In this document: positions 27,238 to 38,151 of the stretch, piece by piece
How positions within the stretch are numbered: the first letter of the stretch is position 1
Layout: every line of letters begins with the position of its first letter
Made by a program: the position numbers and the translations under genes
Assembly (NCBI GenBank): GCA_021373175.1
Contig: JAJFTE010000067.1
Span: 1 to 45,065 of the forward strand
Reading direction: 5' to 3'
Source: Actinomycetes bacterium
Lineage (GTDB): Bacteria > Actinomycetota > Coriobacteriia > Anaerosomatales > Anaerosomataceae
Length of the DNA: 45,065 bases
The notes under the pieces: generated by a model
Databases searched by the model: none
The model's input: only the letters and a program-made list of their open reading frames with translations
Told to the model about the DNA's origin: nothing

Positions 27238-28053
27238 GTGGCTGTGTCGCTGGACGTGCCGGAAGCCGACATCGCGCGCGTCCGCCAGGCGTCGCCGCTT
27301 CGACCGCGTGTGGCGGTCGTGCTCGGCTCCGGGCTCTCGGGGCTTGCGGAGAGCGCCGAGGATGGCGTGGCGATACCCTACGCGGGACTCGACGGCTTCC
27401 CGAGAGTCGGCTCCGTCGTCGGACATGCTGGGCGTCTCGTTGTAGGGGCGCTCGGCGCAGTGCCCGTACTGCTCTTTCAAGGACGCGCTCACCAGTACCA
27501 GGGCGTGAGCGCTCATGATGCCGCGTACCCCGCTCGGCTTGCGGCTGGCCTTGGCTGTGAGGTCCTCGTCGTGACGAATGCGGCAGGCGCCGTGGTGCCC
27601 GGGCTTTCGGTCGGCGATCTCGTGCTCATCTCGGACCACATGAACCTCATGGGCACCAATCCGCTCACGGGGTGGCCCGGCCCCGAAGGTGGCTTCCCGT
27701 TCATTCCGATGCGCGACGCGTACGACCCCGCGCTTCGGGCGACCATGCTCGACGTCGCCAAAGGGCAGGGCGTCAAGCTCGCCGAGGGCGTCTACGCCGC
27801 GCTCCTCGGCCCCTCGTACGAGACGCCCGCGGAGGTCGCGATGCTTGCCCGGCTCGGTGCGGATGTCGTGGGGATGTCGACAGTGCCCGAGGTGATCGCT
27901 GCTCGGGCGCTCGGCCTGCGCGTTGTTGGCATGTCGCTCGTGACGAACGCGGCCGCCGGCGTAGGGTTGTCGCATACAGAAGTCCTCGAGGCGGGGGACC
28001 GTGCGGCCGCACAGCTTCAGCGTTTGGTGAGCGAATTCATCTCTCGTCTCTAG
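27238..28053 (+). CDS. punA: Purine nucleoside phosphorylase (trimeric, PNP/MTAP family)
   Basis: It phosphorolyses purine nucleosides to base and ribose-1-phosphate. The 271-residue protein shows VLGSGLSG (phosphate loop), GRAHQYQG, VVTNAAGAV, LLGPSYETPAE and GMSTVPEV. The Asn of SLVTNAAAG points to a guanosine/inosine-specific PNP rather than methylthioadenosine phosphorylase, which has Asp residues there. The GTG start has GAGAGG upstream and follows the wall gene by 20 bp. Neighbouring ahcY and mtnA make a nucleoside and SAM-recycling group. Confidence 0.92.
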   Translation: MAVSLDVPEADIARVRQASPLRPRVAVVLGSGLSGLAESAEDGVAIPYAGLDGFPRVGSVVGHAGRLVVGALGAVPVLLFQGRAHQYQGVSAHDAAYPARLAAGLGCEVLVVTNAAGAVVPGLSVGDLVLISDHMNLMGTNPLTGWPGPEGGFPFIPMRDAYDPALRATMLDVAKGQGVKLAEGVYAALLGPSYETPAEVAMLARLGADVVGMSTVPEVIAARALGLRVVGMSLVTNAAAGVGLSHTEVLEAGDRAAAQLQRLVSEFISRL

Positions 28054-28076
28054 CGGCGTTTCGCAGGTCGTCCTGC

Positions 28077-28082
28077 TATACT
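28077..28082 (+). promoter_or_regulatory. -10 element for ahcY
   Basis: TATACT about 66 bp before the ahcY start, with no clear -35 box. The roughly 60-nt leader has a good AAGGAGG site. I see no S-adenosylhomocysteine riboswitch pattern in it. Confidence 0.4.
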
Positions 28083-28148
28083 TTGTCGGTTCAGGCAGCC
28101 CGCAGGCTTACGTATCTTCAAGCTCGGAATCCCTAAGGAGGCACACCC

Positions 28149-29408
28149 GTGCAGCACGACGTCAAGGACCTTTCCCTCGCAGCCGCCGGTAAGGCGCGCA
28201 TCGAGTGGGCCGACAATGACATGCCCGTTCTCGCCAGCATTCGCGAGCGCTTCGAGGTCGATAAGCCTCTTGAAGGCATCCGTATCGGCGCGTGTCTGCA
28301 TGTCACCACCGAGACCGCCAACCTGATGCGCACGCTTAAGGCCGGCGGTGCCGAGGTGATGCTCTGCGCAAGCAACCCGCTTTCCACGCAGGACGACGTC
28401 GCCGCGGCGCTCGTTCAGGAGTATGGCATCGCCACCTTCGCCATCAAGGGCGAGGACACCGCCACCTACTACAAGCATATCGACACCGTGATCGCCGGTA
28501 AGCCGCAGATCACGATGGATGACGGTGCGGACGTCGTAGGTCGCGTCCACGCCGAGTTCCCCGAGGCGCTCGAGGGTATCCTCGGCGGTACCGAGGAGAC
28601 CACGACGGGCGTCATCCGCCTCGCGGCCATGGCCGACGACGGTGCGCTCAAGTACCCGATCATCGCCGTGAACGAGGCGAACACGAAGCACCTCTTCGAC
28701 AACCGCTACGGCACCGGTCAGTCCACGCTCGACGGCATCATTCGCGCCACCAACCGCCTCATAGCCGGCCGCACGATCGTCGTGTCCGGCTACGGCTGGT
28801 GCGGCCGCGGTATCGCGAGCCGCGCGGATGGTCTCGGCGGCAACATCATCGTGTGCGAAGTCGACCCGCTCAAGGCGCTCGAGGCCGTCATGGACGGCTA
28901 CCGCGTGATGCCGTCGGCTGAGGCCGCGGCGCTCGCCGACATCTGGGTGACGGTCACTGGCGACATCAGCGTCATCGACTCGCCCGCATTCGACGCGATG
29001 AAGGATGGCGCCATCATCTGCAACTCGGGCCACTTCAACGTGGAGATCAACATCCCGCGTCTGCGTGAGGTCGCCGTCTCGACCCGCGAGGTCCGTCCGC
29101 TCGTCGAGGAGTTCGTGCTCAAGGACGGTCGTAAGATCTACCTGCTTGCCGATGGTCGTCTCGTGAACCTCTCGGCGGCCGAAGGACACCCGGCCTCGGT
29201 CATGGACATGAGCTTCGCGAACCAGGCACTGTGCGCCGAGTTCGTCGCACAGAACTGCTCGGATATGGAAGCTGGCGTCTACGAGGTGCCGGTGGAGATC
29301 GACGAGGAGATCGCTGAGCTCAAGTTGGCGTCCATGGGTGTGAAGATCGACCAGCTGACCGAGCAGCAGGAGACATACCTGAACTCGTGGCAGGAAGGCA
29401 CTGTCTGA
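28149..29408 (+). CDS. ahcY: Adenosylhomocysteinase
   Basis: It hydrolyses S-adenosylhomocysteine to adenosine and homocysteine using a bound NAD, relieving inhibition of methyltransferases. The 419-residue length and lack of the roughly 40-residue insert mark the short bacterial/archaeal form. Motifs seen are [31 protein letters not shown], the NAD loop [12 protein letters not shown] and [10 protein letters not shown]. The GTG start follows AAGGAGGCACACCC. Adenosine released here could be handled after deamination by the PNP upstream. It is followed by a 64-bp gap with a hairpin. Confidence 0.95.
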
Positions 29409-29424
29409 ACGCGATCTGGCCGCT

Positions 29425-29452
29425 ACGGGCCGACGGGCGACCGCCGGCCCGT
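29425..29452 (+). terminator. Hairpin between ahcY and mtnA, possible weak terminator
   Basis: ACGGGCC (29425-29431) pairs with GGCCCGT (29446-29452) over a 14-base loop. No T-run follows, so it may be a processing or partial termination site. Confidence 0.35.
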
Positions 29453-29472
29453 GTTCGTATCGGGAGTGATGC

Positions 29473-30699
29473 ATGGCGATCGACGATATCCCCCGCACGA
29501 TCTGGTGGGAGGACGGCAAGGTCGTTCTCGTCGACCAGTCGCGGTTGCCGCTCGTGGGTGACCTGCTTGTGTGCAACACCTACGAAGGCGTCTGTCACGC
29601 GATCCGAGGCATGGCCGTTCGCGGCGCCCCCGCGCTTGGTGTGGCCGCCGCGCTTGGCGTCGCGCTGTGGGCGACGACCGCGGGCGAGGAGATCGACGAC
29701 GTAGACGCGTTCCTCGGCGAGCTTGACCGCGTGGCCGATGAGATCGCCGGGACGCGCCCCACAGCCGTGAACCTGGCGTGGGGTGCCACGCGCATGAAGC
29801 GCTTCGCCCGCGACAACGCCGGCGTCAGTGTGCCCGAGTTGCGCGAGCTCATCGTGGCCGAGGCGCTCGCTATCCGCGCCGAGGACGAGGAGCGCAATCG
29901 CGCCATCGGCGCGAACGGCGCGGCGCTGCTCGAAGGCGGGTCGCGCGTGCTCACGCACTGCAACGCCGGCTCGCTTGCGACGGCATACTTCGGGACTGCG
30001 CTCGGCGTGATCTTCTCGGCACACGAGCAGGGCAAGATCGAAGGCGTGTGGGTGGACGAGACGCGCCCGCTGCTGCAGGGCGCCCGTCTCACGGCCTGGG
30101 AACTCAAGCTCGCGGGCGTGCCGTTCAAGCTGATCACCGACAGCACTGCGGCGAGCATCATGCGTGCCGGACTGGTGGACGCGGTCATCGTAGGCGCGGA
30201 CCGGATCGCGGGCAATGGCGACGTCGCTAACAAGATCGGGACGTACGGCCTCGCTGTGCTCTGCGAGGAACACGGGATCCCGTTCTACGTGGCGGCTCCG
30301 ACCTCGACGGTCGATCTCACGCTCGCGAGCGGGGACGACATCGTTATCGAGCAGCGCGACGAGCGCGAGGTCACGGGCGTGACTGTCTCGGGAGTCATCT
30401 CACCGGATTCGCCGTCTTCCACGCGTGCATTCGACCTGCTCACCGATGGCGGGCCGTACGAGGTTCCGATCGCCAAGGGCCATCAGATGGTCATCGACCG
30501 CAAGGGCGGGGCGTATCGCTTCGACGGCTGGTTCCGGATCGCGCCTCCGGGCGTGGAGGTCTACAACCCGGCATTCGATGTGACGCCGGCGGCGTACGTC
30601 TCGGCGATCATCACCGAGTGCGGCGTCGTGCGGGCTCCGTTCGGCGAGTCGCTTGCGCTCAACTGCCAGGGTTCTGGCGCCATCCACGAGCTGGGGTAG
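29473..30699 (+). CDS. mtnA: S-methyl-5-thioribose-1-phosphate isomerase
   Basis: It converts methylthioribose-1-phosphate to methylthioribulose-1-phosphate in methionine salvage. The 408-residue protein has IRGMAVRGAPALG, the catalytic Cys163 in THCNAGSLATAYFG and Asp243 in GADRIAGNGDVANKIGTY. The C-terminal NPAFDVTPA is typical. The family norm is about 345-360 residues. The extra length lies mainly between about residues 300 and 355, inserted between EVTG and RIAPPGVEVYNPAF. Other mtn genes are not in the window, so the protein may serve a partial salvage route or a related isomerisation. The start has GGGAGTG about 5 bp upstream. Confidence 0.88.
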   Translation: MAIDDIPRTIWWEDGKVVLVDQSRLPLVGDLLVCNTYEGVCHAIRGMAVRGAPALGVAAALGVALWATTAGEEIDDVDAFLGELDRVADEIAGTRPTAVNLAWGATRMKRFARDNAGVSVPELRELIVAEALAIRAEDEERNRAIGANGAALLEGGSRVLTHCNAGSLATAYFGTALGVIFSAHEQGKIEGVWVDETRPLLQGARLTAWELKLAGVPFKLITDSTAASIMRAGLVDAVIVGADRIAGNGDVANKIGTYGLAVLCEEHGIPFYVAAPTSTVDLTLASGDDIVIEQRDEREVTGVTVSGVISPDSPSSTRAFDLLTDGGPYEVPIAKGHQMVIDRKGGAYRFDGWFRIAPPGVEVYNPAFDVTPAAYVSAIITECGVVRAPFGESLALNCQGSGAIHELG

Positions 30700-31634: not shown

Positions 31635-32312
31635 ATGTTGGGCGTATTGCACGCATTCGCCGAGATCGTGTCGCCGGTGTGCTGCGCGGGGTGCGGGCTG
31701 CCTGGGAGCGCGCTCTGTGCGAGGTGCCGAGCGGGCGCGCGTCTCATCACTCAGGGTGACGCGTGTCCTCGTTGCGGCGCGGCCGTCGAAGCAAGCACGT
31801 GCACCGAGTGTGGCGGGCGCGACTTCGCATTCAGCGCAGCGGCCTGCGCCGGGCGCCTGGAGCCGCCGCTTTCCCGGGCTATCACGCTGTACAAGGACGC
31901 CGCCGAGCGTCGGTACGCCTCACTGCTCGGCTCGCTTCTGCTTGACGCATGCGAACGCTGGCGCGGCTGGCCGGATGCGGTGTGCGCGATCCCGCCAACG
32001 CGTGCGGCGCGCGTGCGGCGCGGGTTCGACCACACGGAGGCGCTGGCGCATGCGGTTGCGGCTGGCCTGAAGGTGCCGTCGGCGGGGCTTCTCGATGCCG
32101 CACGGCGGCCTGATCAGCGGCGGCTGGGCCGTGACGCACGGTTCGCCAACATGGCCGAGGCGTTCACGGTGCGTCGCGATGCGCAGGTGCCGGGCCACGT
32201 GCTCGTCGTCGACGACGTCCTGACGACGGGAGCGACCTTCGATGGCGCTGCGCGTGCGCTGCTGGCCGCCGGCGCTATCGAGGTGAGAGTCGCCGCTGTC
32301 GCCCGCGCGTGA
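31635..32312 (+). CDS. comFC: ComFC-like phosphoribosyltransferase-domain protein
   Basis: A 225-residue ComFC/GntX-type protein, associated with natural DNA uptake in competent bacteria. The N-terminus has a cysteine cluster of paired motifs (CCAGCG, CARC, CPRCG, CTECGG), likely a zinc-binding double finger. The C-terminal half is a type I phosphoribosyltransferase fold with the PRPP motif VLVVDDVLTTGATF at about residues 188-201. It follows the AEC gene by 17 bp. Its downstream neighbour is the structured RNA called below. In other bacteria comFC is a known neighbour of raiA-motif RNA and raiA (hpf), and hpf lies about 4.4 kb downstream here. Confidence 0.88.
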   Translation: MLGVLHAFAEIVSPVCCAGCGLPGSALCARCRAGARLITQGDACPRCGAAVEASTCTECGGRDFAFSAAACAGRLEPPLSRAITLYKDAAERRYASLLGSLLLDACERWRGWPDAVCAIPPTRAARVRRGFDHTEALAHAVAAGLKVPSAGLLDAARRPDQRRLGRDARFANMAEAFTVRRDAQVPGHVLVVDDVLTTGATFDGAARALLAAGAIEVRVAAVARA

Positions 32313-32338
32313 GCACAGAAGCGCTCGCCGTTTCCTGG

Positions 32339-32344
32339 TACACT
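32339..32344 (+). promoter_or_regulatory. Possible -10 element for the structured RNA
   Basis: TACACT predicts transcription from about 32351, 8 nt before the closing stem of the RNA. A second option is TATGCT at 32348-32353. Neither has a good -35 box. Confidence 0.35.
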
Positions 32345-32358
32345 CTCTATGCTTCCAT

Positions 32359-32577
32359 CCGGGTCTGTGGTTGCGGACGCGCAAGCGTCTCAGTCCAAGG
32401 CAGATGCGGCCGAAAGGACCCACGTAAGCCGGCGGTTCGCCGTCGCGCGAGCATGGCGCATCTTAGGGGTAAGTCGTACCGTCCGGTCCAACCATCCGGG
32501 TTGGCGGGCGAGAGGGCCGGTAGTGAGATAGCATCAAGCGGAAGCCCCGGTACGCGAGTGTGGGGCCAAAGACCAGG
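32359..32577 (+). ncRNA. Structured RNA, candidate raiA-motif ncRNA
   Basis: The 311-bp gap after comFC (32313-32623) has no credible gene but a closed fold. The ends pair: 32359-32370 with 32566-32577, 10 of 12 positions. Inside are GACGC-GCAA-GCGTC (32376-32389), CGGCG-GTT-CGCCG (32430-32442) and CCAACC-ATCCG-GGTTGG (32488-32504), enclosed by CCGGT with GCCGG (32483-32487 and 32516-32520). GCCCC/GGGGC (32544-32566) follows. The size of about 219 nt and the place between comFC and hpf match the raiA motif known from Firmicutes and Actinobacteria. I could not check its consensus. If it is not raiA, it is a structured leader of the binding-protein gene at 32624. Confidence 0.55.
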
Positions 32578-32623
32578 TCAGCCGGATGGAAGCGCCGACT
32601 GCTCGTGAGTACAGGAGGGACCG

Positions 32624-33472
32624 ATGACCCGTTCCGTGCGCGTGGTTGCGCTGATCCTCTCGGCGATGCTGGTGGTTTCGATCGCCGGTTGTGGTGGCGC
32701 CAAGAAGCAGACGGCTCTCAAGCCGACGATTGCGCCGCCTGTCATCGCCAAGGCGGGCGTGCTCCGGGCCGGGGTCGATCTTTCGTATCCTCCGTTCGCT
32801 GGCGAGGACAAGGGCCAAAAGGTCGGCATCGACATCGACGTTGCTGCCGCCCTCGCCGAGCGCCTCGGACTTACGGTCGAGATCGTCGACGTGAAGCCGG
32901 CCGACGCAGGGGCAGCGCTCGATAGAAAGCAAGTCGACGTCGCGCTCGGAGGCATGTCGATCACCGACGCCGTTCTCGCCGGGGTCACGCCCGCGGGCTC
33001 GTACATATCGGATGGTGTCGGCTACTTCTCCGTTGTAGCGAGCGGGGCGGCCCTTCCCGACGTAACACCGGCTTCTCTCGGCGGGATGAAGGTTGGATGC
33101 CAGAAGGAGTCGGCGGCTTTCTGGAAGCTTGAGTCGGACTACGGCCAGGGTTTTGCGACCGGCTACGACTCGCTGCGGGAGGCGTTCGATGCGCTCAAGG
33201 CCGGGGATGTGGACGTGGTCGTCGGTGATGCGATCGTGGGGGCGTACATATCGCGCGATTATCCGGACGTCCGATTTGTCGGACAGCATGGCGAAGCGAC
33301 TGCGCTTGGCGTCGTGGTGGCTCCCGACAGTGCGGAGCTTGAAACCGCAGTTCGGACGGCGCTTGATGCGCTGTCTTCCGAGGGCGTGCTTGATGCGATT
33401 CGTACCAAATGGGTCGGCGCTTTGCCCTCTCTCGACACTTCGACGTCTGCGGAGCCAACGACCACTCCATAG
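32624..33472 (+). CDS. Amino-acid ABC transporter substrate-binding lipoprotein
   Basis: A 282-residue family 3 solute-binding protein anchored outside the membrane. The lipobox SIAGC puts the lipidated cysteine at residue 23. GVLRAGVDLSYPPFAG and VGIDIDVAAALAERLGL are the family motifs of lobe 1, and DALKAGDVDVVVGDAIVGAYI belongs to lobe 2. A Ser/Thr/Pro-rich tail ends the protein. The ATG has ACAGGAGGGACCG upstream. It precedes a second binding protein and a permease/ATPase pair, so two receptors may share one channel. Its lobe-1 ligand positions differ from the second protein (SITDAV here, TIKPDR there), which suggests a different amino acid. Confidence 0.88.
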   Translation: MTRSVRVVALILSAMLVVSIAGCGGAKKQTALKPTIAPPVIAKAGVLRAGVDLSYPPFAGEDKGQKVGIDIDVAAALAERLGLTVEIVDVKPADAGAALDRKQVDVALGGMSITDAVLAGVTPAGSYISDGVGYFSVVASGAALPDVTPASLGGMKVGCQKESAAFWKLESDYGQGFATGYDSLREAFDALKAGDVDVVVGDAIVGAYISRDYPDVRFVGQHGEATALGVVVAPDSAELETAVRTALDALSSEGVLDAIRTKWVGALPSLDTSTSAEPTTTP

Positions 33473-33598: not shown

Positions 33599-33660
33599 TA
33601 TGCATTGTGATGCAGAGGAGGGCACGCACTGTGTCCGTCGCGTTCATCGAAGGAGGATTC

Positions 33661-34485
33661 ATGTCAAAGGGCAAGAAGTGGGTGGCACTTGTTCTGGCCG
33701 TCGCACTCGTGCTCGCTGTCGCACTCACTGGTTGCGCCAGCAAGACCGACACAGGCACGAGCGACACCACCGGCAACACGACCAAGACAGTCACGCTTAA
33801 GACGATTGAGCCGGGCAAACTCCTGGTTGGGTCGGACACGGCCTTCCCGCCGTTCGAGTCCATGAACGGGAATGTTGCCGAGGGGTTTGACGTTGACCTG
33901 ATGAAGGCTATCGGCGAGAAGCTCGGCCTCGAGGTCACCTTTAAAACCGAGATCTTCGATACGCTCATTCCGACCCTCAAAGCCGGCGGCAAGTTCGATG
34001 TTATTGCCTCCGGCATGACGATCAAGCCTGATCGTCAGCTTGAGATCGACTTCTCGGATCCGTACTACGATTCCAACCAGTCGCTGGTCATGAAGAAGGG
34101 CACGACGTACACCGGTCCCGAGCAGCTCTCGGGGAAGAAGGTCGGCGTTCAGTCCGGTACTACCGGTGAAGCTTGGGCCAAGGAGAACGTGACCGGTGCG
34201 ACGCTCGTACCGTTCAAGAACGCGACTGACGCGTTCGCCGCGCTTCAAGCTGGCAACGTCGATGCTGTTGTAAACGACCTGCCAGTGTCGACTGAGCTGC
34301 TGAAGGATGACGATCGGGGTCTCGCAATCGTGGCTCAGATTCCGACGGGCGAGCAGTATGGTTTCGGCGTGAGCAAGGACAACCCGGACTTGACCGCCGC
34401 CATCAACAAGGCGCTCGCCGAGATCAAGAGCGACGGCACGTACAACGATATCTACCAGAAGTGGTTTGGCATTCTGCCGGAGTAG
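33661..34485 (+). CDS. Amino-acid ABC transporter substrate-binding lipoprotein
   Basis: A 274-residue family 3 binding protein with a signal peptide and lipobox ALTGC (Cys25), then a Thr/Ser-rich linker. LLVGSDTAFPPFESMNGN, GFDVDLMKAIGEKLGL and DVIASGMTIKPDRQ form lobe 1. GVQSGTTGEAWAKEN and AGNVDAVVNDLPV form lobe 2. The Arg and Asp of these motifs are those that hold the amino-acid alpha groups. The ATG at 33661 follows AAGGAGGATTC; a longer frame from 33607 crosses the promoter. It heads an operon with the permease and ATPase, separated from them by a strong hairpin that could keep the receptor in excess. Confidence 0.92.
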   Translation: MSKGKKWVALVLAVALVLAVALTGCASKTDTGTSDTTGNTTKTVTLKTIEPGKLLVGSDTAFPPFESMNGNVAEGFDVDLMKAIGEKLGLEVTFKTEIFDTLIPTLKAGGKFDVIASGMTIKPDRQLEIDFSDPYYDSNQSLVMKKGTTYTGPEQLSGKKVGVQSGTTGEAWAKENVTGATLVPFKNATDAFAALQAGNVDAVVNDLPVSTELLKDDDRGLAIVAQIPTGEQYGFGVSKDNPDLTAAINKALAEIKSDGTYNDIYQKWFGILPE

Positions 34486-34579: not shown

Positions 34580-35917
34580 ATGGGTCATCCGAACCGAAGG
34601 CGCACGCTCAGACTCTTCTCGCTAGCCATTGCGGGTATCGTCCTCACTTGCGCCTTCGCAACGCAAGCCATCGCCATGACGGGCGCCAAAGTCACCGTCG
34701 ACCGAGACACTGGCGGTCAGTTGACTAGGTTCACGTTCGCCGCGACCAGTGGTCAAGACGAACCAGTGACGCGAATCGACTTTCTATTCCCGGAGGGATT
34801 CGATCCAGCGGATGCCAAGGTCGACGTCACCCTGCTGGAGGGGCTCAAGCGACTCTCGACCTCATTCGAGCAGAGCATTGACCCGCAAACAGGCGTAGTG
34901 AGCGTCATGTTCGATGCACCGGTTCCGCCCAAGAGCAACTACCTCATTCAGGTTCGCGACGTCATGACCCCAATCGCGGGCGGGACGTATGAGCTGCCGG
35001 TGCAATACACGGTAGAGGCGTCAGGCACCTCCTCGCCTGAAGTTCGGTCTGTGAGTGGTCTCACGTTCAAGTACAACACGCCGCCGCGCGAAGAGGTCAT
35101 CTCTCGCTGGCTCGACAGCCAGGCGTGGGTGAAGATGTGGAATAGCGTCAAGGTGCTCGACCTGTTTCTGAAGCCGCAGCAGTTTGTACGCGCCGTGCCA
35201 CTCTTGTTCGCCGGTTGGCTGATGTCTCTCTCGCTGGTGCTGAGCGCGTTCCCGATTTCGATTATGGGCGGCCTCGGCACGGCATTCATGAAGATGTCCA
35301 AAGTGCCTCCAGTACGCTGGCTGGCATCCATCTACATCAACGTCATCCGAGGCACGCCGCTGTTCCTGCAGATCTTCGTCGTGTTCATCGGCCTTCGCAC
35401 CACCGGCCTGCGATTCCCGGACTATCTCTCCGCGGTCGTTGTGCTTGCCTTCAACTCGTCGGCTTATCTGGCCGAGATATTTCGCGCTGGTATTCAGTCC
35501 ATTTCGAAGGGGCAGTTTGAGGCCGCTTCATCTCTGGGCATGACGTACTGGCAGGCGATGCGCTACGTGATCATTCCTCAGACCGTGCGTCGTGTACTTC
35601 CGACGATGACGTCCGAGTTCATCTTGCTGTTCAAGGACACTGCGCTGTTCGCAGCTGTCGGTATTTTCGAACTTATGTTGCGCTCCCAGAATTTCGTAGC
35701 ACGTTCAGGTAACTTGACCGCCTACGTGGTCGCCGCGCTGTACTACTTGATTATCACTATCCCGCTGATCAACCTCGTCGGACGGCTGGAGTACAAGCTT
35801 GCTCAGTCCGAGCATGGTGTCACAGCTCCAACAGGCAAGCGCCGGGCGCGCGGCGGCGTGGGGCCGCTCTCGGGACCGGACTTTGATGCAACCGCCGCCA
35901 AGCATGAATCGAGGTGA
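34580..35917 (+). CDS. Amino-acid ABC permease with exported N-terminal beta-rich domain
   Basis: A 445-residue protein. Residues about 1-33 are a signal-like helix. About 34-165 form a non-binding-protein domain of alternating strands ([20 protein letters not shown] and [20 protein letters not shown]), probably an Ig-like sandwich outside the membrane. From about 205, a HisM/GlnP-type permease begins, with [32 protein letters not shown] and the ATPase-docking EAA loop [20 protein letters not shown]. Ordinary permeases of this family are about 220-250 residues. The N-terminal domain is not the usual fused binding domain. The ATG has GGGGCAGGC upstream. It overlaps the ATPase gene by 4 bp. Confidence 0.85.
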
Positions 35918-36657
35918 GCGCCGTGACGCAGCCGGTCGTTCGAATCGTCAATCTTCATAAGTCGTTCGGCAGCCTGGAGGTGCTGAAGGGCGTCAATCTT
36001 GAAGTGCAGCGCGGTGAGGTAGTTGTCATTCTGGGGCCGAGCGGTTCCGGCAAGTCGACTACGCTGCGGTGCGTGAATCACCTCGAAGAGCCGTCAAGCG
36101 GCGAGGTGTGGCTTCAGGATGTGCAGATAAATGCTCCGGGCGCGAACGTGAACAAGGTGCGCGAGCACATCGGAATGGTATTCCAGAGCTTCAATCTATT
36201 CCCGCACTTGACTGCCAGGGGCAACGTGATGCTCGCACAGCGCAAGGTTCTCGGGCGGACTCAGGCTGAAGCTGAACGAATCGCCGATGAGCAGCTCGCA
36301 AAGGTCGGGCTCTCCGATCGCGCCGACCACTACCCTTCGCAGCTGTCCGGCGGACAACAGCAGCGTGTGGCCATTGCGCGCGCGCTTGCCATGGACCCGA
36401 TCGTGATGCTGTTCGATGAAGTGACGTCCGCTCTCGACCCCGAACTCGTTCGCGACGTCTTGGAGGTCATGAAGGAGCTCGCACTCGCGGGTATGACGAT
36501 GCTCGTGGTGACTCACGAGATGGGATTCGCTCGCGAGGTTGCGAGCAGGGCGGTGTTCATGGACGGAGGCGTCATCGTGGAGGAAGGCACTCCCGAGGCA
36601 GTCTTCGATCATCCGCAGAACGACCGCACGAAGGACTTCCTCGGACACATCAGCTAG
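35914..36657 (+). CDS. Amino-acid ABC transporter ATP-binding protein
   Basis: The 247-residue ATPase that powers import, of the polar amino acid GlnQ/HisP type. Walker A is GPSGSGKST (41-49). The signature is LSGGQQQR, Walker B with switch is [15 protein letters not shown], and the H-loop is VVTHEMGF. It begins with GTG overlapping the permease stop (GTGA). It is the last gene of the operon and is followed by a hairpin. The [10 protein letters not shown] form is common in this subfamily and not a defect. Confidence 0.95.
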
Positions 36658-36747: not shown

Positions 36748-37290
36748 ATGCAGATGATCGTCAAGGGACGGCACACCGAAGTGACCCCGGCCATCAAGGA
36801 GTACGCCGAGGAGAAGATCGGTCGCATCGCCAAGATTCTCGACAGCATGATCATGAGTGCGGAGATTGAGCTATTCACGGAGCGGAATCCCTCGATCGAG
36901 AACAGCCAGGTCGCGGAAGTCACGGTCTACACGAAGGGCCCTGTCATTCGCGCCAGGGAAGCCGCTACCGACATGTATGCCGCCATCGACCTTGTCTCCG
37001 ACAAGCTTGAGCGGCAGGTGCGCAAGTTCAAGACCAAGATCATCGACCGCCACAAGACTGGTTCGCCCACCTCATCGCTCCCGCTTGCCGAGGAGCTGCC
37101 GGCTGATGTTGAGCGCGCTATCGTCAAGACGAAGGTGGTCGAGGTCAAGCCCATGTCCGCCGAGGAAGCGATCTTGCAGCTTGAGTTGCTCGGCCATGAC
37201 TTCTTCGTCTTCTCCTCGGCCGAGACCCAGGACATCAACGTGCTCTACCGGCGCAATGACGGCGACTACGGGCTGATCGAGCCGAGATAG
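36748..37290 (+). CDS. hpf: Ribosome hibernation promoting factor, long form
   Basis: A 180-residue ribosome-associated protein that dimerises 70S ribosomes into inactive 100S particles under starvation. The N-terminal S30AE domain (about 1-100) starts MQMIVKGRHTEVTPAIKEYA. A linker rich in Pro and Ser follows, then the C-terminal dimerisation domain (about 120-180) with KPMSAEEAILQLELLGHDFF and DINVLYRRNDGDYGLIEP. AAAGGAGG is upstream of the ATG. This protein is also called RaiA. Its nearness to comFC and the structured RNA at 32359 is a known arrangement, here interrupted by the amino-acid transporter genes. Confidence 0.94.
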   Translation: MQMIVKGRHTEVTPAIKEYAEEKIGRIAKILDSMIMSAEIELFTERNPSIENSQVAEVTVYTKGPVIRAREAATDMYAAIDLVSDKLERQVRKFKTKIIDRHKTGSPTSSLPLAEELPADVERAIVKTKVVEVKPMSAEEAILQLELLGHDFFVFSSAETQDINVLYRRNDGDYGLIEPR

Positions 37291-37491: not shown

Positions 37492-38151
37492 GTGGAGAAT
37501 ACGGTTTCGCCGGCGGTCATCGCCGAGATAGAGGAAGCGCTATCTCAGGTTGCCGAGATCAAGGCTGCGCGCGTGGTCGCATCCTCGGAAGGAATCATTG
37601 AGGAGATACACGTGCTCGCCCTTCCGACGAAGACCCCCAAGCAGCTGGTCCGCGACATCGAGTCGACGATCATGGCTGCCTTCGGTATCGCGATCGATCA
37701 CAAGATCGTCTCCATCGCGCAACTTGGCCCCGATGTGCTGCCCAAGCAAGAACCGAAGGAGCACCCGCGCGCGCGGATCCACGCCATCAACGCCGAGGTG
37801 AGCGGCGTGGTTGCGAACAGCACCGTGACCCTCGAGCTTGAAGGCGACGTGTACGTCGGCACCGCCACCGGGCCTGCGAGCCAGACCGGTCGGCAGCGGC
37901 TGGTCGCCCAGGCGACGCTGAACGCGGTCGAGCAGTACCTCCATGGCAGCATGAGCTTCGCCCTGGAGGATGTGGACGTCGTTCGCCTCGGCAGGGAATC
38001 GGTCGCCGTTGCATGCATCATCCTGGTCACTTCTTTGGGGGAGCAGGCATTTTCGGGTTCAGCGCTGGTTCGGCAGAACGAGAAGGACTCGATCGTCAGG
38101 GCGACGCTTGACGCGATCAATCGACGAATGGGTTTCTTGACAACTCCATAG
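37492..38151 (+). CDS. Conserved protein of unknown function
   Basis: A 219-residue soluble protein I cannot name. It starts with GTG after AGGGGG. The N-terminal part (about 1-85) has LPTKTPKQLVRDIESTIMAA and IDHKIVSIAQL, a small alpha/beta unit predicted as strand-helix-strand. The C-terminal part (about 93-215) has two similar halves, each with a strand pair and a helix: QRLVAQATLNAVEQYLHG in the middle and KDSIVRATLDAINRRMGF at the end. They resemble each other and may be a duplication. No signal peptide or membrane helix is seen. It has a strong own promoter and normal high GC, and it borders the low-GC signalling genes downstream, so a regulatory role with them is possible but unproven. 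Confidence 0.8.
   Translation: MENTVSPAVIAEIEEALSQVAEIKAARVVASSEGIIEEIHVLALPTKTPKQLVRDIESTIMAAFGIAIDHKIVSIAQLGPDVLPKQEPKEHPRARIHAINAEVSGVVANSTVTLELEGDVYVGTATGPASQTGRQRLVAQATLNAVEQYLHGSMSFALEDVDVVRLGRESVAVACIILVTSLGEQAFSGSALVRQNEKDSIVRATLDAINRRMGFLTTP

Follow-up and report, generated by a model that had tools for sequence, protein, structure and literature searches.

Two raiA (ModT) RNAs, those of C. difficile and C. acetobutylicum, provide the closest described counterparts of the RNA considered here: they are abundant, stable and trans-acting, and affect the growth transition, sporulation and aggregation (PMC11706538). Besides the pseudoknot pk1, the structure of raiA RNA contains pk2, a two-pair contact, and non-canonical tertiary contacts (PMC11751092). 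In a review, raiA RNAs are said, citing Weinberg 2017, often to precede periplasmic-binding-protein genes (PMC11477304); hence, the association of this RNA with solute-binding-protein genes is not new as such. Here, we analyse a locus from an uncultured member of the Coriobacteriia which, judging by its sequence, is a bona fide raiA RNA gene of this known family; its origin is deduced from the neighbouring gene, whose closest named matches belong to metagenome assemblies of uncultured Coriobacteriia and Actinobacteria. To the known picture we add a promoter-like motif at a fixed distance from the RNA, a terminator-free spacer of ~31 nt and a family of adjoining solute-binding lipoproteins, denoted SBP1, that seems to lack a characteristic arginine.

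Identity and boundaries of the RNA

Within the window, i.e., the whole stretch of 45,065 nucleotides that was analysed, the gap that separates the comFC stop codon from the ATG of SBP1 (Table 1) is occupied by a structured RNA and contains no credible gene, as proposed in the initial annotation. The family name offered there was also correct: in an Infernal search with the Rfam covariance models, RF03072 (raiA/ModT RNA) matched positions 32354-32590 of the forward strand over its full length (model positions 1-209 of 209) with 162 bits (E 7.4e-41), compared with a curated gathering cut-off of 101.3 bits, and was the sole gathering-level Rfam match within the window. The fallback of a new leader RNA is, consequently, superfluous as an identity, although the RNA still probably lies within the leader of the transporter mRNA. 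The initial annotation had chosen the right gap but missed ~8 nt of the RNA at its 5' end and ~16 nt at its 3' end. The search of the source genome with RF03072 yielded a single copy, and none of the 14 control genomes contained a match at the cut-off.

Table 1. Features of the raiA RNA locus (window coordinates).
Feature	Position	Strand	Basis or remark
comFC, phosphoribosyltransferase-domain competence protein	31635-32312	+	Pfam PF00156; upstream neighbour
Putative extended -10 promoter element TGGTACACT (TGnTAnRnT)	32336-32344	+	Motif conservation upstream of P1
raiA (ModT) RNA including full P1 stem	32351-32593	+	RF03072
P1, 5' strand GCTTCCATCCGG	32351-32362	+	Partner 32582-32593; pairing 99.8-100% in the 53 rows from the order
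Variable hairpin GACGC-GCAA-GCGTC, P2 position	32376-32389	+	Sequence and pairing in relatives
pk1, 5' strand AGATGCG	32402-32408	+	Pairs with CGCATCT
pk1, 3' strand CGCATCT	32457-32463	+	Partner of 32402-32408
P6-P7-P8 domain, large variant	32475-32554	+	P6 32475-79/32550-54
P7; P8	32480-84/32506-10; 32514-17/32544-47	+	Inside P6-P7-P8 domain
P1, 3' strand CCGGATGGAAGC	32582-32593	+	Partner of 32351-32362
Shine-Dalgarno AGGAGG of SBP1	32613-32618	+	Sequence
SBP1, lipoprotein, family-3 solute-binding fold	32624-33472	+	PF00497; directly after RNA
SBP2, amino-acid-binding protein	33607-34485	+	PF00497; canonical TxxR arginine present
Permease with N-terminal DUF2808	34580-35917	+	PF00528 + PF10989
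ABC transporter ATPase	35914-36657	+	PF00005
hpf/raiA, long-form ribosome hibernation factor	36748-37290	+	PF02482 + PF16321; separated from the RNA by four genes

Fold and covariation

Covariation was assessed in a MAFFT alignment of 133 homologues, 53 of them from the same order as the window, using the structure from Rfam; the double-change cells reported below are counts of sequences, not of independent events. The relatives of this RNA covary strongly, with compensatory changes in P1, pk1, P6, P7 and P8 among the 133 homologues. In the 53 rows from the order, the inner nine pairs of P1 (32354-32362/32582-32590) are 99.8% paired and five of the nine display compensatory change (54 double-change cells), and the three pairs that extend the stem outwards (32351-32353/32591-32593) are 100% paired, whereas neighbouring registers reach only ~30-55%. 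The closing helix originally suggested, 32359-32370 with 32566-32577, lies in the wrong register: it is 77-83% paired, with 83% in the 53 relatives from the order, where it displays zero compensatory change, and was rejected in favour of the covarying P1. The GCAA-capped hairpin, also part of the first description, is real (32376-32380/32385-32389, loop 32381-32384), with 85% pairing and 29 double-change cells in the order rows (‘-2’ register), and its position suggests that it corresponds to P2.

The seven pairs between AGATGCG and CGCATCT, which we take, from their position and length, to be pk1 as resolved by cryo-EM (PMC11751092), are 100% paired in the order and 96.5% paired in all 133 rows, where the true register accumulates 138 double-change cells compared with 0-14 in slid registers. 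Pairing in P6, P7 and P8 amounts to 100%, 96% and 96%, with 118, 69 and 74 double-change cells, respectively (133 rows).

These data bear on the trivial reading of the gap, namely, a GC-rich spacer that folds by chance or a hidden short gene. Open frames do span the gap (for instance, 32309-32608), but such a reading is contradicted by the full-length RF03072 match, by the compensatory changes and by the lengths of the RNA in relatives (225, 226, 237, 239, 241, 243 nt and so forth), which do not change in steps of three and thus argue against coding. Chance is excluded by the poor pairing of the slid P1 registers together with the lack of RF03072 matches in the control genomes. We therefore consider this reading refuted, its probability being practically nil.

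Occurrence in relatives

The raiA RNA was found in 54 of the 61 relatives and in 140 of the 149 genomes of the Coriobacteriia sample. In three RNA-negative assemblies, G026, G046 and G116, a contig opens with a match to SBP1, 1-83 bases from its first position (G026:C28, G026:C16, G116:C125 and G046:C12). The assemblies thus appear to have broken at the RNA, and loss of the RNA from the three genomes was rejected; reports of metagenome bins that lack raiA RNA may likewise be artefacts of such breaks. In G038, neither raiA RNA nor comFC nor a close relative of SBP1 was found, which may reflect either loss or missing assembly, both of which fit. In the same genome, a stretch ahead of an unrelated solute-binding gene (locus L153, G038:C60) resembles, on inspection by eye, a T-box leader belonging to a divergent gene.

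Gene neighbourhood

In the window, hpf is found downstream of the RNA with four other genes in between, an arrangement that the initial annotation regarded as unusual. The 54 loci of the order refute this view: separation from hpf by the transporter operon is the norm, the usual order being comFC - RNA - SBP1 - SBP2 - permease - ATPase - hpf, and the window locus itself is one ordinary example of the class arrangement. SBP1 directly follows the RNA on the same strand in all 54 loci, and comFC precedes it on the same strand in 52, the two others offering only 118 nt (G033) and 918 nt (G036) of upstream sequence on the contig. Of the 47 loci in which the sequence extends far enough, 46 have hpf downstream, and only G048 does not. 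Positions are conserved further out as well. Across the order, hpf is followed by a 219-aa protein without a Pfam match (37492-38151 in the window), and most of the order keeps, upstream of comFC, a cluster (27238-30699) of what we take, from reading the sequences rather than from a family search, to be mtnP-like, ahcY-like and mtnA-like genes.

For comparison, we used 40 further loci of the class, 39 of them from other Coriobacteriia families. An SBP1-type gene adjoins the RNA on the same strand in 35 of these, hpf is located downstream in 20, and comFC is inverted in 13; overall, the linkage between the RNA and SBP1 extends across ~20 families. Outside the Coriobacteriia, no SBP1 was detected within 700 nt of the raiA RNA in any of 40 loci and hpf was present within that distance in 28, and in other parts of the phylum the gene behind the RNA is hpf or an unrelated one. 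Judging by these counts, no other downstream neighbour of the RNA is as constant in the Coriobacteriia as SBP1, which, in our sample, is specific to the class. Some gene orders of the class include hpf and others do not, and comFC is inverted in some, so that SBP1 stands out as more constant than these two genes, the common neighbours of raiA RNA.

Promoter, spacer and leader

In 51 of 53 order loci, the 40 nt that precede P1 contain the motif TGnTAnRnT, which nearly always lies 9-10 nt ahead of model position 1; each of the six 40-nt blocks further upstream has it in 0-1 of 53 loci. The motif is also present upstream of P1 in 29 of the 40 loci from the rest of the class. This promoter-like conservation suggests that the raiA RNA has its own promoter at the 5' end, with a predicted transcription start at ~32351.

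At its 3' end, the RNA is separated from SBP1 by a spacer whose median length is 31 nt across the 54 order loci and which mostly measures 30-41 nt elsewhere in the class, so that in most loci there is no room for a separate SBP1 promoter or terminator. We observed neither a terminator nor an anti-terminator between the RNA and SBP1. A T-rich tract just after P1 was found in 4 of 54 order loci, 5 of 40 class loci and 17 of 40 loci from other classes, counts that depend on base composition, which differs between the groups, and hence denote a tendency; given that some of the other-class loci with a nearby hpf likewise have no such tract, the terminator-free trait is not exclusive to the Coriobacteriia. 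The steady spacer and the lack of room for a terminator indicate that SBP1 most likely resides on the transcript of the raiA RNA, which would thus serve as 5' leader of the SBP1 mRNA as well.

This organization is difficult to reconcile with a wholly autonomous raiA RNA, nearly all transcripts of which would end or be cut at P1, with the neighbours being passengers by shared ancestry. The clostridial RNA, with its own start and terminators (PMC11706538), could be cited for such autonomy, as could the variation of gene order between classes and the 13 class loci with comFC inverted. However, in most order loci P1 is followed by no T-tract and by only 22-40 nt before the SBP1 start, so that SBP1 would be left without a promoter, and the linkage to SBP1 spans ~20 families; full autonomy is accordingly unlikely.

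Conversely, the RNA could be a cis regulator in this class, responding to a signal as a riboswitch-like leader would and thereby controlling SBP1 and the genes that follow it in the operon, at the level of either transcription or translation. The same-strand SBP1-type gene next to the RNA in all order loci and in 35 of the 40 other class loci, the steady ~31-nt spacer and the Rfam typing of RF03072 as ‘Cis-reg; riboswitch’ all fit this possibility, but the leader itself does not. The spacer is unconserved apart from its first ~five bases and the Shine-Dalgarno sequence, and folding of 76 leaders showed no masking of the ribosome site by the RNA, the unpaired fraction being 0.40 with and 0.43 without it; such masking was accordingly rejected. 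Computed spacer conservation, leader folding and T-tract counts yielded no riboswitch expression platform coupled to SBP1, with neither terminator nor anti-terminator seen. The unhidden ribosome site and the largely unconserved spacer leave a classical riboswitch unsupported. Moreover, trans complementation in clostridia rules out a cis role there (PMC11706538), and the RNA stands before hpf or unrelated genes elsewhere in the phylum. Taken together, these observations render cis regulation improbable.

SBP1 and the transporter-type operon

In amino-acid-binding family-3 proteins, the TxxR arginine contacts the ligand carboxylate and an aspartate binds the amino group. In an alignment that contains gaps in this region, the arginine is kept in none of the 89 RNA-linked SBP1 proteins, and 75 of the 89 retain an aspartate that aligns with the amino-binding residue. 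The RNA-linked SBP1 family thus appears to have lost the carboxylate-binding arginine, and its ligand may be an amine or another non-amino-acid. SBP2 is related most closely to solved sequences that include glutamine-binding proteins. In the permease of the window, DUF2808 is fused N-terminally to BPD_transp_1.

The best match to SBP1 adjoins the RNA as one full-length piece (at least 39% identity) in 28 of the 30 genomes with a match; in G032, it adjoins the RNA in two pieces (42-48% identity), and G038 has no match. The other solute-binding matches do not exceed ~38% identity, the top of that range consisting of short fragments.

Functional implications

The explanation that we favour, and deem probable, combines an own promoter, the raiA fold, a trans role and read-through into the operon from SBP1 to hpf. 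The extended -10 promoter would drive the raiA RNA from ~32351, and the transcript would fold into the compact raiA structure, closed by P1 and held by pk1. By analogy with clostridia, it would then most likely be a structural RNA, stable and abundant, that acts in trans to adjust how cells move from growth into stationary phase. With no terminator in the way, the transcript probably continues into SBP1 - SBP2 - permease - ATPase - hpf, so that the RNA would double as the 5' leader of the operon mRNA, perhaps freed by processing, and its level would be coupled to the uptake of nutrients and the hibernation of ribosomes.

The sequence comparisons support the identity and fold of the RNA, the promoter motif, the gene order and the missing terminator. 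The transcription start, read-through, processing and trans function are deductions, the trans role by homology with clostridia, the only group in which such action has been shown, and co-transcription, as a class-specific addition, from the arrangement of the locus. If the RNA were as abundant as in clostridia and read-through unrestrained, SBP1 would be among the most transcribed genes of the cell; processing or attenuation must therefore be assumed.

A more speculative and rather unlikely extension is that the raiA RNA and SBP1 form one unit in the Coriobacteriia, with the RNA as an obligate leader and the altered pocket sensing a non-amino-acid signal, thereby linking a nutrient cue to the growth transition and hibernation. 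In any case, this class, in which an RNA with a putative promoter of its own is nearly always joined, at a fixed spacing, to the front of the same lipoprotein gene, offers a concrete partner for testing the role of raiA RNA.

Comparison with known systems

Riboswitch leaders of transporter operons resemble the present locus in that a structured RNA is located ~31 nt before a transporter-type gene; they differ in that no expression platform was found here and that the raiA family is trans-acting in clostridia. The raiA RNAs reported to precede periplasmic-binding-protein genes (PMC11477304, citing Weinberg 2017) have the same type of neighbour, and the relevant passage of that review gives no spacing, promoter, class-wide linkage or altered-pocket detail of the kind described here.

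The closest parallel is provided by the raiA (ModT) RNAs of C. acetobutylicum and C. difficile, which share with the RNA of the window the full-length RF03072 match, closure by P1, pk1, the large variant of the P6-P7-P8 domain, comFC upstream, the single copy and what is here a predicted promoter just before P1. The promoter, however, is of the extended -10 type in this locus as opposed to sigma-A -35/-10 in the clostridial raiA, and the terminator that follows P1 in the latter is missing here. Unlike its clostridial counterparts, the coriobacterial RNA stands ahead of a solute-binding-protein operon whose last gene is hpf.
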